From: Bacillus sp. SB49
GTDB taxonomy: Bacteria > Bacillota > Bacilli > Bacillales > Halobacillaceae
DNA length: 64,000 bases
Reading direction: 5' to 3'
NCBI RefSeq assembly: GCF_000469135.2
Contig: NZ_CP048117.1
Coordinates: forward strand, 3,509,501 to 3,573,500
A model generated the notes under the pieces. That model was not told the DNA's origin and ran no database searches. It saw only the letters and a program-made list of their open reading frames with translations. Each line of letters opens with the position of its first letter. The stretch's first letter is position 1. Positions 58,937 to 63,640 of the stretch are shown here, one piece after another. Made by a program: the position numbers and the translations under genes.

Positions 58937-58991
58937 AACCGATAAAAATAAGCCCACTCGCCATAATTGAGAGGGCTTATTTTTATCGGTT
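58937..58991. terminator. Bidirectional terminator, zinc-ribbon gene and parR
   Basis: 19-bp perfect arms (58937-58955 and 58973-58991, AACCGATAAAAATAAGCCC) with a 17-nt loop. The outer arm overlaps the last codons of parR on the minus strand. Confidence 0.88.
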
Positions 58992-59564
58992 CATTCGGCT
59001 GAAGAAATCATCAAGCATATCGTCCTCGTCTTCTTCCTTGGTGTCTTCCTCTTCTACACGCAGATCCCCTTGAAGGCTGTCCAGATCAAGGTCGTCTAAG
59101 TCATCGTCCGTGAATTCAGGGATTTCCGCCACTGGATTATTAACGGGGACATCTACTTCTTTCTCTTCATTGGAAGCTGCTGCCTCTTCCTCCTGCAGAT
59201 AGAGAGCATCATCGATATCATAAGCATTGCTGTTCATCGTGGCGAGCAGCGTGGTCGCCCGCATCGGGTCGAGCATCAATTGATAAAGAATACTACCGAT
59301 CAACGCCTCGGAATGTTCATGCTTCATCCAGCTGCGCTGTTCCTTCGTCAACGGCTTCGGTAGAGGAATTGTCACCATTTCCTTATCTTTCGACAGTGTC
59401 TCACTGACCCCGTCCATGACAAACTGAGCAATTCTGCTTGAAAAGTTCCTTCGCTCTTCTTCTTTTAAACGGGTTAATTGCTTCAAAATATGATCAGGTG
59501 TGTCCGAGGGGACACGAAACGTGATCGATTGTCCCCTCTCCACACTTTTCCTGGAAGAACTCAT
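58983..59564 (-). CDS. parR: ParR-like partner of the actin segregation cassette
   Basis: 193 aa. The N-terminal part (about 10-55; GQSITFRVPSDTPDHILKQL then FSSRIAQFVMDG) looks like a ribbon-helix-helix strand-helix-helix. The C-terminal third is extremely acidic (FTDDDLDDLDLDSLQGDL, then EEEDTKEEDEDDMLDDFF) and ends FFSRMNR, suited to contact the actin filament end. It lies 12 bp after the ParM-like gene, the standard parMR order. The call rests on position, size and this architecture rather than strong sequence identity. Confidence 0.75.
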   Translation of the reverse strand: MSSSRKSVERGQSITFRVPSDTPDHILKQLTRLKEEERRNFSSRIAQFVMDGVSETLSKDKEMVTIPLPKPLTKEQRSWMKHEHSEALIGSILYQLMLDPMRATTLLATMNSNAYDIDDALYLQEEEAAASNEEKEVDVPVNNPVAEIPEFTDDDLDDLDLDSLQGDLRVEEEDTKEEDEDDMLDDFFSRMNR

Positions 59565-59576
59565 AGAATCCTCCTA

Positions 59577-60764
59577 TTATTTAGCGGATCCTGATTTTTG
59601 TTCTTGCTTCTTGTTATCTTTAGAGAACTCATTATTGTTTTTGCGGATGAAATCAGAAATCAGCTTGTAATAAGCGTTTGCCATCATCCAAATGCTTTCC
59701 TGCTCGTCCTCAAAGAACTCGATGTTGAAACCGTCCAGTTTGTTGTTCAGGGTCTTGATGTAATCTTTCAAAACAGCAGAACCGCCACCGACAAAGTAGC
59801 AGATCTCTGTCTGGGAGTTTTTCTGCCATACATTTCTCAAATAACGGTATTGTTTCTTCGCAAGTTCAAGAAGGATGCGGTCGGTAATGTCATGAACATT
59901 CGTACGGCTTCCGCGGACCATGATATGGTGGCGGTCATTCTTACGGGTGATGATATCAACGACATCGCGGCGGCTGTCCAATTCCACACCGTGTTTCGTC
60001 AGGATTTCATCACGAATCATTTCTAATGATTCAGAAACACCCAGGTTGAATCCTTGTGCTTTGTCATCATCCACATTGCGGTTACGGATCACAGCGATAT
60101 CTGTGGACAGACCACCAATATCCTGAATCAAAATCTGTTTGTCCACAAGTTCTTTATTAATAATCGTCAAATCATTATCCATTACCAGGTTCACATAAGC
60201 TGCGAATCCTTCTGGATATACTTTAACTTCATCAAATTTCAAATTAACTTTGATTCCTTGATATTTAGGCGTTACAAGGAACTCGACCTGGTGAACAGAT
60301 CCAAGCAGCTGCGAACGGTACCCAACGTCTTTTCCTTCTTTCACTTCTCTAAGTGGAAGTCCTGTACCCAGCGTGTAGTTCGCCTCTAATACGTTATTTT
60401 TGCTCGATTGAGCGTTTTTACCGGATACAGCATCCATAGCTAATGCAGCAAAAAGCATGACCAGCGTCTGATCTTCCTCTGACTTATAACTGCCAGGGTC
60501 GAGTTCAGTAGAGTTGGTCGTTTTTGTAGCCAGATTACCTACACGGTAAATTGCGTTGTTTTCCCTCAGAGCAGGGGAGTGCACGCGGATATGTAGGTTA
60601 TCAAGTGGTTCTTTATCATCCAAATCTTCAATACCGATTACAGGTCGGTCCTCCAGATCTCTTGCAATGACGTTCGGGATATATAAAGAAGATTCTAGTT
60701 TTCCAAAGTTTGCTTTTACAGCATCGTTACCTACATCAACAGCTGCGATTCTTGAATTTGTCAT
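59577..60764 (-). CDS. parM: ParM/StbA-family actin-like ATPase
   Basis: 395 aa, actin-like fold. Phosphate 1: IAAVDVGNDAVKANFG (about 5-20); phosphate 2: LIQDIGGLSTDIAVI (about 212-226); adenosine motif: YFVGGGSAVLKDYI (about 333-346). LGTGLPL in the first domain is typical of plasmid ParM/Alp proteins. It should polymerise with ATP and push DNA bound through ParR. The ATG has GGAGAG upstream. Neighbours are chromosomal, so this is a plasmid-type segregation actin outside a plasmid context. Confidence 0.87.
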   Translation of the reverse strand: MTNSRIAAVDVGNDAVKANFGKLESSLYIPNVIARDLEDRPVIGIEDLDDKEPLDNLHIRVHSPALRENNAIYRVGNLATKTTNSTELDPGSYKSEEDQTLVMLFAALAMDAVSGKNAQSSKNNVLEANYTLGTGLPLREVKEGKDVGYRSQLLGSVHQVEFLVTPKYQGIKVNLKFDEVKVYPEGFAAYVNLVMDNDLTIINKELVDKQILIQDIGGLSTDIAVIRNRNVDDDKAQGFNLGVSESLEMIRDEILTKHGVELDSRRDVVDIITRKNDRHHIMVRGSRTNVHDITDRILLELAKKQYRYLRNVWQKNSQTEICYFVGGGSAVLKDYIKTLNNKLDGFNIEFFEDEQESIWMMANAYYKLISDFIRKNNNEFSKDNKKQEQKSGSAK

Positions 60765-60813
60765 ATTATACAGCTCTCCTTTTCTATTACTAAATTTTGT
60801 CTAGCTTACTCTT

Positions 60814-60842
60814 AATCTATTAAACACGCTCCTAATAGTCAA
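60814..60842 (-). promoter_or_regulatory. Candidate promoter of parMR
   Basis: Minus-strand TTGACT (60842-60837), 17-bp spacer, TAGATT (60819-60814), between the octamer array and parM. Confidence 0.5.
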
Positions 60843-60866
60843 TGCGCCTTTTTGAGCATTCATTCA

Positions 60867-61020
60867 TGTGTGCATGTGTACAAATATGTTTACAAGTGTA
60901 CTATTTCGAACGCACGTTGATATATAAGGATGTGTACACTTTTGTTTTCATGCACACATATTTGAATACGTATTGTTTTCTTTTTGTACACATGTTTACA
61001 TTAATGTGTTCTTGTATGCA
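60867..61020. repeat. Centromere-like octamer array (parC candidate) upstream of parM
   Basis: Ten octamers related to TGTKTACA. Left module: 60867 TGTGTGCA, 60875 TGTGTACA, 4-bp gap, 60887 TGTTTACA, 60895 AGTGTACT. Middle: 60931 TGTGTACA and 60951 TGCACACA (inverted). Right module: 60985 TGTACACA, 60993 TGTTTACA, 4-bp gap, 61005 TGTGTTCT, 61013 TGTATGCA. The two 36-bp modules have the same 8+8+4+8+8 layout and the array is nearly symmetric about 60944. This matches a ParR-binding centromere. Confidence 0.75.
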
Positions 61021-61395
61021 TTTTACGTAAACATACAATATCTTACACAAAAAGATGGGCTTAGTACTACTGCGATTTTCCAGAACCCGGGCTGATGTGA
61101 GGAAAGTAGGAGGGTGTGAAAAAGGGGGATGAACAAAAACCACGTCGATTTTCTAAATGAAATTATCTCTTAAGATAAAATCATCCTATTTGAAGCATAG
61201 GAGGAGGGAGATGGGAGGTTCCTATACATGAATGGGAGCGCCTTAATAAGCACCATATGCACGGGACCGAAGTGAAAGAGAGTAGAAGAACACGAAGAAC
61301 GTAAGTGACCCGATATCAACAAACGTAAAAGAGGCATACGACTGTATGCCTCTTTTACAAGTATAGATGTCCCATTAAACAATAGGGTAATCCGT
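61021..61395. other. Non-coding remainder of the 631-bp gap upstream of parM
   Basis: After the octamer array come ACGTAA and ACATACAA motifs, then AT-rich sequence to about 61320. A good ribosome site (AGGAGGAGGGAG, about 61200) is followed only by a six-codon and an overlapping 15-codon frame, so I see no convincing gene. Confidence 0.55.
61325..61358. terminator. Terminator downstream of the intracellular protease gene
   Basis: GTAAAAGAGGCATAC and its perfect complement (15 bp) around GACT; T-rich on both strands. Confidence 0.85.
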
Positions 61396-62361
61396 TTATT
61401 TTTCTGTATGAACACGAAAAATTTCTTCCAATTTATCTGTGAGAGCGAGTGTCATCAGCCCGTTTCCTTCCGCAACTTTACTAAAGCCGAGAGGGGTCGT
61501 TCGCTTGATCAGCTGTGAAAAGATCTCCGACTCTGACATAGAGCGCTGAAACTGTTTTTCCACCAAAGGGATTAACAGCGCTATCCCTCCTGAGACATGA
61601 GGAGTAGCCATGGAAGTGCCGGAGAGCTTGGCATACTTCCCTTCCGTGTAAGTGGACAGGACATCAACACCGGGAGCAACCAAGTCTATTTGATCATTCA
61701 TATTGGTAAATTCCGCGATTCCCTTGGAATTATCGACGGCTCCCACCTGTATGACTTCATTATAAGCGCCGGGATAGCTGAATTCCTGTGTATCTTCCCT
61801 GCCGTCTCCGTCATTTCCAGCGGCACATACGATCGATATTCCACTGTCTACGGCATCTTTTACAGCCTGATGGAGTTCTTCAGTATCTTGAGGACCGCCA
61901 AGGGACATGGAAATGACTCTTGCCTTCTCTCCGGAAGGACCTTCCCAGTCGATCGCATAGCGAATAGCATTAACAATCCACTCATAACTGCCACTCCCAT
62001 CACCGGAAAGGACCTTTAAAATAAGTAGTTTTGCTTTTGGCGCCACCCCTACTACTCCATTTCCATTCTCTAAAGCTGCGATGGTACCGGCAACATGGGT
62101 GCCGTGTCCGTTATTATCATTATAATCTTCTATACTTCCATTAAAGTCATCTGTGAAATTGTAGCCATCGATGATCTGCCCCTCCAAATCCGGGTGATCC
62201 ATCTGACAGCCTGTGTCAATAACAGCTACGACACTGCCTGCACCTTGATCTGTCCGTTCCCACAACTCCTCTGCTTCCACCATTTTTATTCCTGAAGGAA
62301 CCTCTGAAATGGACTCTAAAACAGTTTCTGTGCGATATGGAATCAGTTTCATTTGGTTCAT
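61396..62361 (-). CDS. ispA: Intracellular serine protease (subtilisin family)
   Basis: 321 aa without a signal peptide. The N-terminal KLIPYR holds the LIPY motif of the ISP inhibitory pro-sequence. Catalytic triad: D49 ([11 protein letters not shown]), H86 (NGHGTHVAG), S250 ([12 protein letters not shown]), with the oxyanion Asn in AAGNDGDG. Resembles B. subtilis IspA over its full length. Degrades cytoplasmic proteins in stationary phase and sporulation. GGAGGAG site upstream; a shared 194-bp region separates it from the divergent small zinc-ribbon gene. Confidence 0.93.
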
Positions 62362-62779: not shown

Positions 62780-63640
62780 TTGTCCATGAATCAGGATCAC
62801 TGCATCCGAGTCCCTGTTCTATATGACTGGGTTACCTTAAACGAGACATTTTATAAAAACCACAACATTCCTCTTTCCCAGATAGAATCATATCCTGTAG
62901 AAAAGCTCATTTTTAACATCGAAAGAGCATGTAAAAACAAGTATTACTTCCCTCTGTGGGAACATTACTCCAAGCATTCCTATGCGGTTACCATTAATGT
63001 TAATCAGGTCCATAAAATGAGAGGACCGATGAAACTAGTCTTGAACGGGAAAGAGTCTTTCTCCATCGAGGCAGAGCAGCCGTTCTCCATCACGGTACAA
63101 AACATCACCTCTATTGTTTTAAAGGTTCCTGAATCCTGCACCATTACCGGGTATATAGGTACAGTAGAGGTGATCCTTAAGAAGGCATATCATTCTTCCG
63201 ACAGGTATAAAGTATCAAGCTTTTTCACGTCTGCTCCGGATGCTTCAAATAATGCAGATTACTCCCCCTTACATGTCTATGTAAAAACCAATCGGAGAGA
63301 GCCCTCATCAACAATCCCCCAACGGTTTTCTGTGGTTATTAAAGGCTTCCTCGCCGTTATCCGGACAGATACAATAACAGAGGAACAGTGCCTGGTGGAG
63401 GTTCTACCAATCCATTATGAGAAAAACGTTCATCTCCATACCCCTGACGGAGCAGAAATTTCCTACACAATCCACGACATTCAGCTGCATTCTACATCTG
63501 CATGCATAGATCAGAGGCGCTGTTTGAAAATTTCTCATGAAATCCAGGTAGATCTTACACTAAAGTCAACAAAAATCCACACCATCGCCATACGAGGCTC
63601 TCTGAAACACCCCTATATTAAGCCAAGCGAATCACAGTAA
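62780..63640 (+). CDS. Hypothetical protein, possibly spore-surface associated
   Basis: 286 aa from a TTG at 62780 (GAGGAGG 7 nt upstream) or the ATG at 62786. The N-terminal CIRVPVLYDWVT recalls openings seen in some Bacillaceae spore-coat or exosporium proteins; the rest is mostly predicted beta-strand with paired cysteines (ACIDQRRC near 237-244). No signal peptide or membrane segment. Its 3' end overlaps the convergent BclA-like gene by 23 bp. Role inferred only from context. Confidence 0.6.
   Translation: MSMNQDHCIRVPVLYDWVTLNETFYKNHNIPLSQIESYPVEKLIFNIERACKNKYYFPLWEHYSKHSYAVTINVNQVHKMRGPMKLVLNGKESFSIEAEQPFSITVQNITSIVLKVPESCTITGYIGTVEVILKKAYHSSDRYKVSSFFTSAPDASNNADYSPLHVYVKTNRREPSSTIPQRFSVVIKGFLAVIRTDTITEEQCLVEVLPIHYEKNVHLHTPDGAEISYTIHDIQLHSTSACIDQRRCLKISHEIQVDLTLKSTKIHTIAIRGSLKHPYIKPSESQ

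Follow-up and report, generated by a model that had tools for sequence, protein, structure and literature searches.

A conserved, origin-linked chromosomal variant of the ParMRC cassette in Bacillus sp. SB49 and its relatives

Here we describe a chromosomal parM-parR cassette with an array of octamers of its own, which is a real, conserved and origin-linked variant of ParMRC whose function is potentially important and for which we infer a part in chromosome movement. The cassette lies in a 64-kb stretch of DNA from Bacillus sp. SB49 (the window, by which we mean that whole stretch), on the same single 3,765,941-bp contig as dnaA. The replicon is thus the chromosome and not a plasmid or megaplasmid, which agrees with the original prediction of a plasmid-type actin segregation cassette in chromosomal surroundings. 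The features of the cassette and its surroundings are collected in Table 1.

Table 1. Positions in the window of the cassette, its upstream array and neighbouring features.
Feature	Position	Strand	Description
parR	58983-59564	-	ORF, 193 aa, starts 12 bp after parM; adaptor
parM	59577-60764	-	intact ORF, 395 aa; actin-fold ATPase, Alp7A-like; Pfam matches
possible parMR promoter	60814-60842	-	TTGACT-17-TAGATT, between array and parM; consensus match only
parC-like array	60867-61033		ten non-overlapping octamers TGTNTACA/TGTANACA, at most one mismatch; further degenerate octamers in register
36-bp module	60867-60902		8+8+4+8+8; last octamer (60895-60902) with two mismatches
AT-rich core, 16 bp	60915-60930 (centre 60922/60923)		flanked by octamers; the family consensus is close to tg.tG.TaTaaca.ca and approximately palindromic
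36-bp module	60985-61020		8+8+4+8+8; third octamer (61005-61012) with two mismatches
terminator-like stem-loop	61324-61359	-	after the subtilase-family protease gene
subtilase-family protease gene	61396-62361		upstream of the array
Enas-like protein	62780-63640		close to the cassette; Pfam Enas (endospore appendage) match

The actin, its adaptor and their neighbours

The product of parM belongs to the ParM/Alp group of actin-fold ATPases, as is characteristic of type II (ParMRC) systems and as had been predicted from the open reading frame. It matches the Pfam families Alp7A_like_C (E=7.7e-36, 123.7 bits, cut-off 22) and ALP_N (E=4.3e-9, 37.2 bits, cut-off 26.3), and MreB-like_C likewise scores above its cut-off. 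The Pfam model of the ParM C-terminus, PF21523, gave 24.7 bits and lies below its cut-off of 27.4, and the NCBIfam model of plasmid ParM, NF010498, reached 33.7 bits, again below a cut-off of 417. Comparison with three relatives from Halobacillus, the genus of the nearest named relatives by parM, shows that the gene is under purifying selection: first, second and third codon positions are 89-90%, 97-98% and 46-50% identical to the window copy, respectively. Across 15 genomes, identity to the window copy is 76-92% for ParM and 75-94% for DnaA over its aligned part, which in two of these genomes (G198 and G185) comprises the C-terminal two thirds only. ParM is therefore conserved about as well as DnaA.

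The second gene, parR, encodes the small protein that had been expected directly behind the actin. It has a ribbon-helix-helix-like start ('SITFRVPSDTPDHILKQL'), an acidic linker and a conserved C-terminal peptide, which reads ...MLDDFFSRMNR in the window and LGDFFSSMNK or LGDFLSxMNK in many relatives. An alignment of 58 ParRs is invariant at the start (RGQ.ITFR.PSD.P), at RNFSS, in parts of the middle region and in the tail (L..F...MN), and variable in the acidic linker. Pairwise identities of ParM and ParR are correlated (r=0.71 over 1,653 pairs). The window ParR had no match in Pfam at E 0.001 or in NCBIfam at E 0.01, and no ribbon-helix-helix family was among 25 of the 33 Pfam families in the ParR comparison. 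A structural model built from the alignment was of low confidence (mean pLDDT 66, pTM 0.26) and gave no credible match to the PDB at E 0.001; a strand-helix-helix order appeared only in a low-confidence single-sequence model (pLDDT 56). ParR is the likely DNA-binding partner of ParM.

The immediate neighbours of the cassette vary between genera. In the window, the array is preceded by a gene for a protease of the subtilase family, with a terminator-like stem-loop after that gene; a related neighbour of the cassette is present in 10 of 81 loci. The Enas-like protein encoded close by also matched a spore-coat model, below the cut-off.

An octamer array organised around an AT-rich core

A repeat array beside the operon is a hallmark of type II systems, and the ten octamers reported upstream of both genes are indeed present, five of them as exact copies. 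When overlapping positions are counted, a stretch of 180 bp at the array contains 13 octamers, compared with 6 in the densest such stretch in the rest of the window and a mean of 0.41. The two 36-bp modules of the original prediction can be recognised as well, provided that two of their octamers are allowed two mismatches.

Arrays of this kind recur among relatives. We compared 101 upstream regions, namely the window, 80 named loci and 20 genomes of the order picked as divergent or complete; the named loci are the best-matching 80 among 442 confirmed stretches and thus represent the closest relatives rather than a random sample. Counting octamers with at most one mismatch over the 420 bp that precede parM (294 bp in L083), we found at least six in 99 of the 101 loci (median 11 over all loci); the two others have 2 (L046) and 4 (L071). 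The commonest spacings between octamers were 12 bp (199 times) and 8 bp (191 times) among 81 loci.

These octamers flank the AT-rich core at preferred distances. In an alignment of the cores built solely from the octamers adjoining them, the side away from parM has an octamer 24 bp from the core in 84 of 101 loci, at 32 bp in 70 and at 44 bp in 54, and farther out at 66 bp in 56, at 74 bp in 48 and at 86 bp in 51. On the parM side octamers are fewer and more scattered (24 bp in 25 loci, 32 bp in 31, 44 and 45 bp in 17 each). Mirror symmetry is only moderate, with a left/right correlation of 0.55 over distances of 14-109, the upstream half being rigid and the other looser. The window array had been described as nearly symmetric about 60944. 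This position is the midpoint between the two modules, but it was rejected as the centre of the family array, since both the core alignment and the octamer register centre on the core.

A register learned from octamers only placed the centre where the core alignment did in 84 of 101 loci, and five loci (L093, L094, L122, L124, L132) fitted a fixed register poorly. In this register the core bases carry 8.14 bits over 16 columns, as compared to at most 0.85 when letters were permuted within each core. A first control, EM on shuffled spacers, had spoken against the core (11.6-12.0 bits for shuffles, 9.4 for the real sequences); we judged it flawed, since the EM can converge on octamers in that setting, and turned to the octamer-only register instead. 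With at most 14 mismatches the register was matched in 96 of 101 loci and in 0 of 101 reversed sequences, a difference that mainly reflects the presence of octamers because reversal destroys them and these loci had themselves been used to derive the register. Promoter-like matches in the region upstream of parMR, among them the candidate in Table 1, were no more numerous than in shuffles. An Rfam comparison led nowhere.

The array appears to be single. No second copy was found in the window's own genome, where the best matches elsewhere spanned just 14-16 bases (E 0.6 or worse). A search of 29 genomes for TGTNNACATGTNNACA returned 19 places in 18 of them, of which 12 were directly upstream of parM, one was about 1 kb upstream and six were elsewhere. 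These six equal the number in a reversed-pattern control, and dispersed ParR sites of this strict type were therefore rejected. Two loci of one genus, L122 and L123, have a second octamer array about 0.94-1.10 kb upstream of parM, separated from the gene by fragments like the neighbouring gene, in what looks like a local duplication.

Descent on the chromosome and position beside the origin

All 22 genomes of the genus have a parM match, at 90-100% identity. In a sample of the order, matches with E 1e-60 or better were found in 148 of 299 genomes and 49 of 113 genera, the best being 73-100% identical. A ParR profile search also returned 148 of 299 genomes, the identical set when the two were matched by eye, and parM and parR lie side by side at each of the 81 loci compared. 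The adaptor gene is thus both adjacent and co-inherited, as in type II systems, and parR, like the array, is kept with parM, in line with the original prediction. By the same threshold the cassette is missing from the other 151 genomes and hence dispensable at the scale of the order. Within the same family, the small genomes G214 (2.6 Mb) and G237 (2.9 Mb) are without it at the thresholds used. A sample taken at the level of the class gave matches of E 1e-60 or better in 28 of 299 genomes; 16 of the 28 fall outside the order, eight with 75-80% and eight with 37-44% identity.

Plasmid records gave 76 parM matches, all below 60% identity (43.8% for the best of the 20 listed), and phage records gave none. 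In a quick tree, 103 chromosomal rows group as a single clade (SH-aLRT 100), and the ten plasmid or distant rows fall outside it; this split is the only part of the tree that we use, because several distant rows have long branches. Such cassettes are mostly known from plasmids, and a recent plasmid integration or a decaying remnant would account for one on a chromosome. With intact, selected reading frames, presence throughout the genus and in about half of the order sample, and only distant plasmid relatives, we regard this explanation as extremely improbable. The distribution, the comparison with plasmids and phages, and dnaA on the contig led us to reject a plasmid or prophage remnant. The cassette is old on the chromosome and probably long domesticated.

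The plasmid relatives, from Bacillus, Paenibacillus, Peribacillus, Niallia and Cytobacillus (L115-L121), resemble the chromosomal cassettes in their gene order, parM-parR, in their proteins, with ParM identities of up to 44% among those listed, and in having octamers of a similar type upstream. They differ in having 1 to 6 octamers per 500 bp in the seven relatives (at most one mismatch, overlaps counted), as judged with the chromosomal consensus, from which plasmid sites may differ. Their ParR tails also mostly end in FL(D/N)FDDDD (L116 and L120 do not), in place of the chromosomal LGDF(F/L)SxMNK.

Other actins occur in these bacteria. Of the 22 genomes of the genus, 18, the window's not among them (L023-L030 and further places), hold a further chromosomal actin match at 26-31% identity, and in L023, L024 and L029 a small protein downstream of it ends in EIED(V/L)LEAFGG. 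An extra, distant ParM beside a ParR-profile match was seen at G198:C1:2349363-2350454 and G196:C12:75089-76204 (35 and 41% identity, respectively); both genomes carry the cassette too, and in G198 the extra ParM lies opposite the origin.

The cassette itself keeps a constant place. In 44 of 44 orthologues parM lies upstream of dnaA and is transcribed away from it, at a distance of 32-303 kb (median 83 kb), or 0.7-7.2% of the contig (40 of the 44 genomes); these positions are non-independent because of shared ancestry. Two genomes (G172 and G408) were left out of the count because dnaA and parM are on different contigs, and in 13 the distance was taken across the contig end on the assumption that the contig closes into a circle; G005, G057, G190, G200 and G201 among these 13 have more than one contig. 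Four distant chromosomal homologues (35-44% identity) lie 10, 35, 47 and 50% of the contig from dnaA. As a control we used argJ, which is 39 kb from parM in the window and was found in 27 of 31 genomes examined. Within 7.5% of dnaA on the same side were parM in 27 of 27 genomes and argJ in 3 of 27; outside the genus the counts were 22 of 22 and 0 of 22. A single gene makes a thin control, and the 7.5% limit was chosen after the parM positions had been seen, with argJ just beyond it in two members of the genus (7.6 and 9.2%).

These positions bear on two other explanations. ParR and its array might just autoregulate the operon, or compete with plasmids that bear like octamers, with the proximity to the origin simply inherited. 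Autoregulation is common among ParR-type proteins, the plasmid relatives have like octamers, several of them beside a -35-like TTGAC, and part of the shared position follows from immediate descent. But a repurposed regulator or incompatibility device fits poorly with an array that holds more sites than those of the seven plasmid relatives (by the chromosomal consensus) and stands upstream of the putative promoter, with an actin conserved like DnaA, and with a place that parM has kept and argJ has not; we consider it improbable. Scarcely more probable is a role specific to sporulation, in which ParM, ParR and the array would anchor the origin region at a pole, or pull it there, during spore formation, in the manner of RacA, and not at every division. 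The site is origin-proximal, the cassette-bearing group includes many spore formers and the two small genomes of the family are without the cassette, all of which would suit such a role; the 151 genomes of the order that are missing it speak against it.

Known systems and a proposed role at the origin

The ParMRC system of plasmid R1 consists of an actin, an adaptor and a repeat centromere, with iterons around the promoter. R1 ParM is a very distant sequence match to the window ParM (E=0.0038). Chromosomal ParMs are already known: cParMR has been described in Desulfitobacterium, Clostridium botulinum, Moorella, Bacillus tropicus and others, with filaments shown for two chromosomal ParMs and the function left open (Ali et al. 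2025, PMC12270681). According to the same paper, Cb-cParR binds a cparC that has three palindromic repeats, and the B. tropicus protein Bt-cParM is conserved in Bacillus (PMC12270681). The cassette described here resembles cParMR in that ParM and a neighbouring ParR are both encoded on the chromosome and highly conserved within the genus, and ParA/ParB are present in cParMR hosts as well (PMC12270681). It differs from cParMR, so far as the main text of that paper describes it, in its much wider clade, in a longer array that shows preferred spacings and has a core, and in its fixed place by dnaA; a word search of that main text found no dnaA, and oriC in the reference list only (PMC12270681). 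The matches listed for open-licence PubMed Central papers included no further account of a chromosomal parMRC linked to the origin, or of such an array.

Two further comparisons are instructive. Salactin of haloarchaea is likewise a chromosomal actin proposed to segregate chromosomes, but it is archaeal, and no DNA adaptor or array is described for it in the available part of the source (PMC10746226). ParABS has centromere-like parS sites near oriC (PMC7333895). Our cassette shares with it the origin-proximal, centromere-like sites and differs in using an actin where ParABS uses a ParA-type ATPase. A parS-like sequence (the parS consensus with at most one mismatch) was found in 29 of 29 cassette-bearing genomes, and the reversed control gave 3 hits in all. 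Since parS-like sites coexist with it, the cassette is not the sole segregation system, and most likely it would add to ParABS and not replace it.

On balance we favour the reading that this is a plasmid-type ParMRC cassette that was domesticated on the chromosome and acts on the origin region beside ParABS. That ParM filaments segregate or position origins through the single array beside oriC, as a second engine next to ParABS, we rate at about even chances. In such a scheme, ParR dimers would bind the palindromic octamers, and the array, with its ten or so sites about the AT-rich core, would become a nucleoprotein platform; the conserved tail peptide of ParR would contact ParM; and ParM filaments would push or pull the array. 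Origin regions would be the natural cargo of an array that lies beside oriC and of which the genome yielded no second copy, and newly replicated sister origins might thus be separated or placed in parallel with ParABS. The original prediction had posed as alternatives that the chromosome uses an actin to move DNA or that the cassette was captured from a plasmid; with a chromosomal clade that stands apart from the plasmid rows and adjoins the origin, the two are compatible.

A cassette of this kind near the origin suggests, from its sequence and position, that these bacteria may move or place their own chromosome with the help of an actin. If it works in this way, it would be an actin-based, spindle-like device in bacterial chromosomes besides ParABS, and its DnaA-like conservation, together with an array of its own by the origin in many genera, makes the question directly testable in culturable and mostly harmless bacteria.
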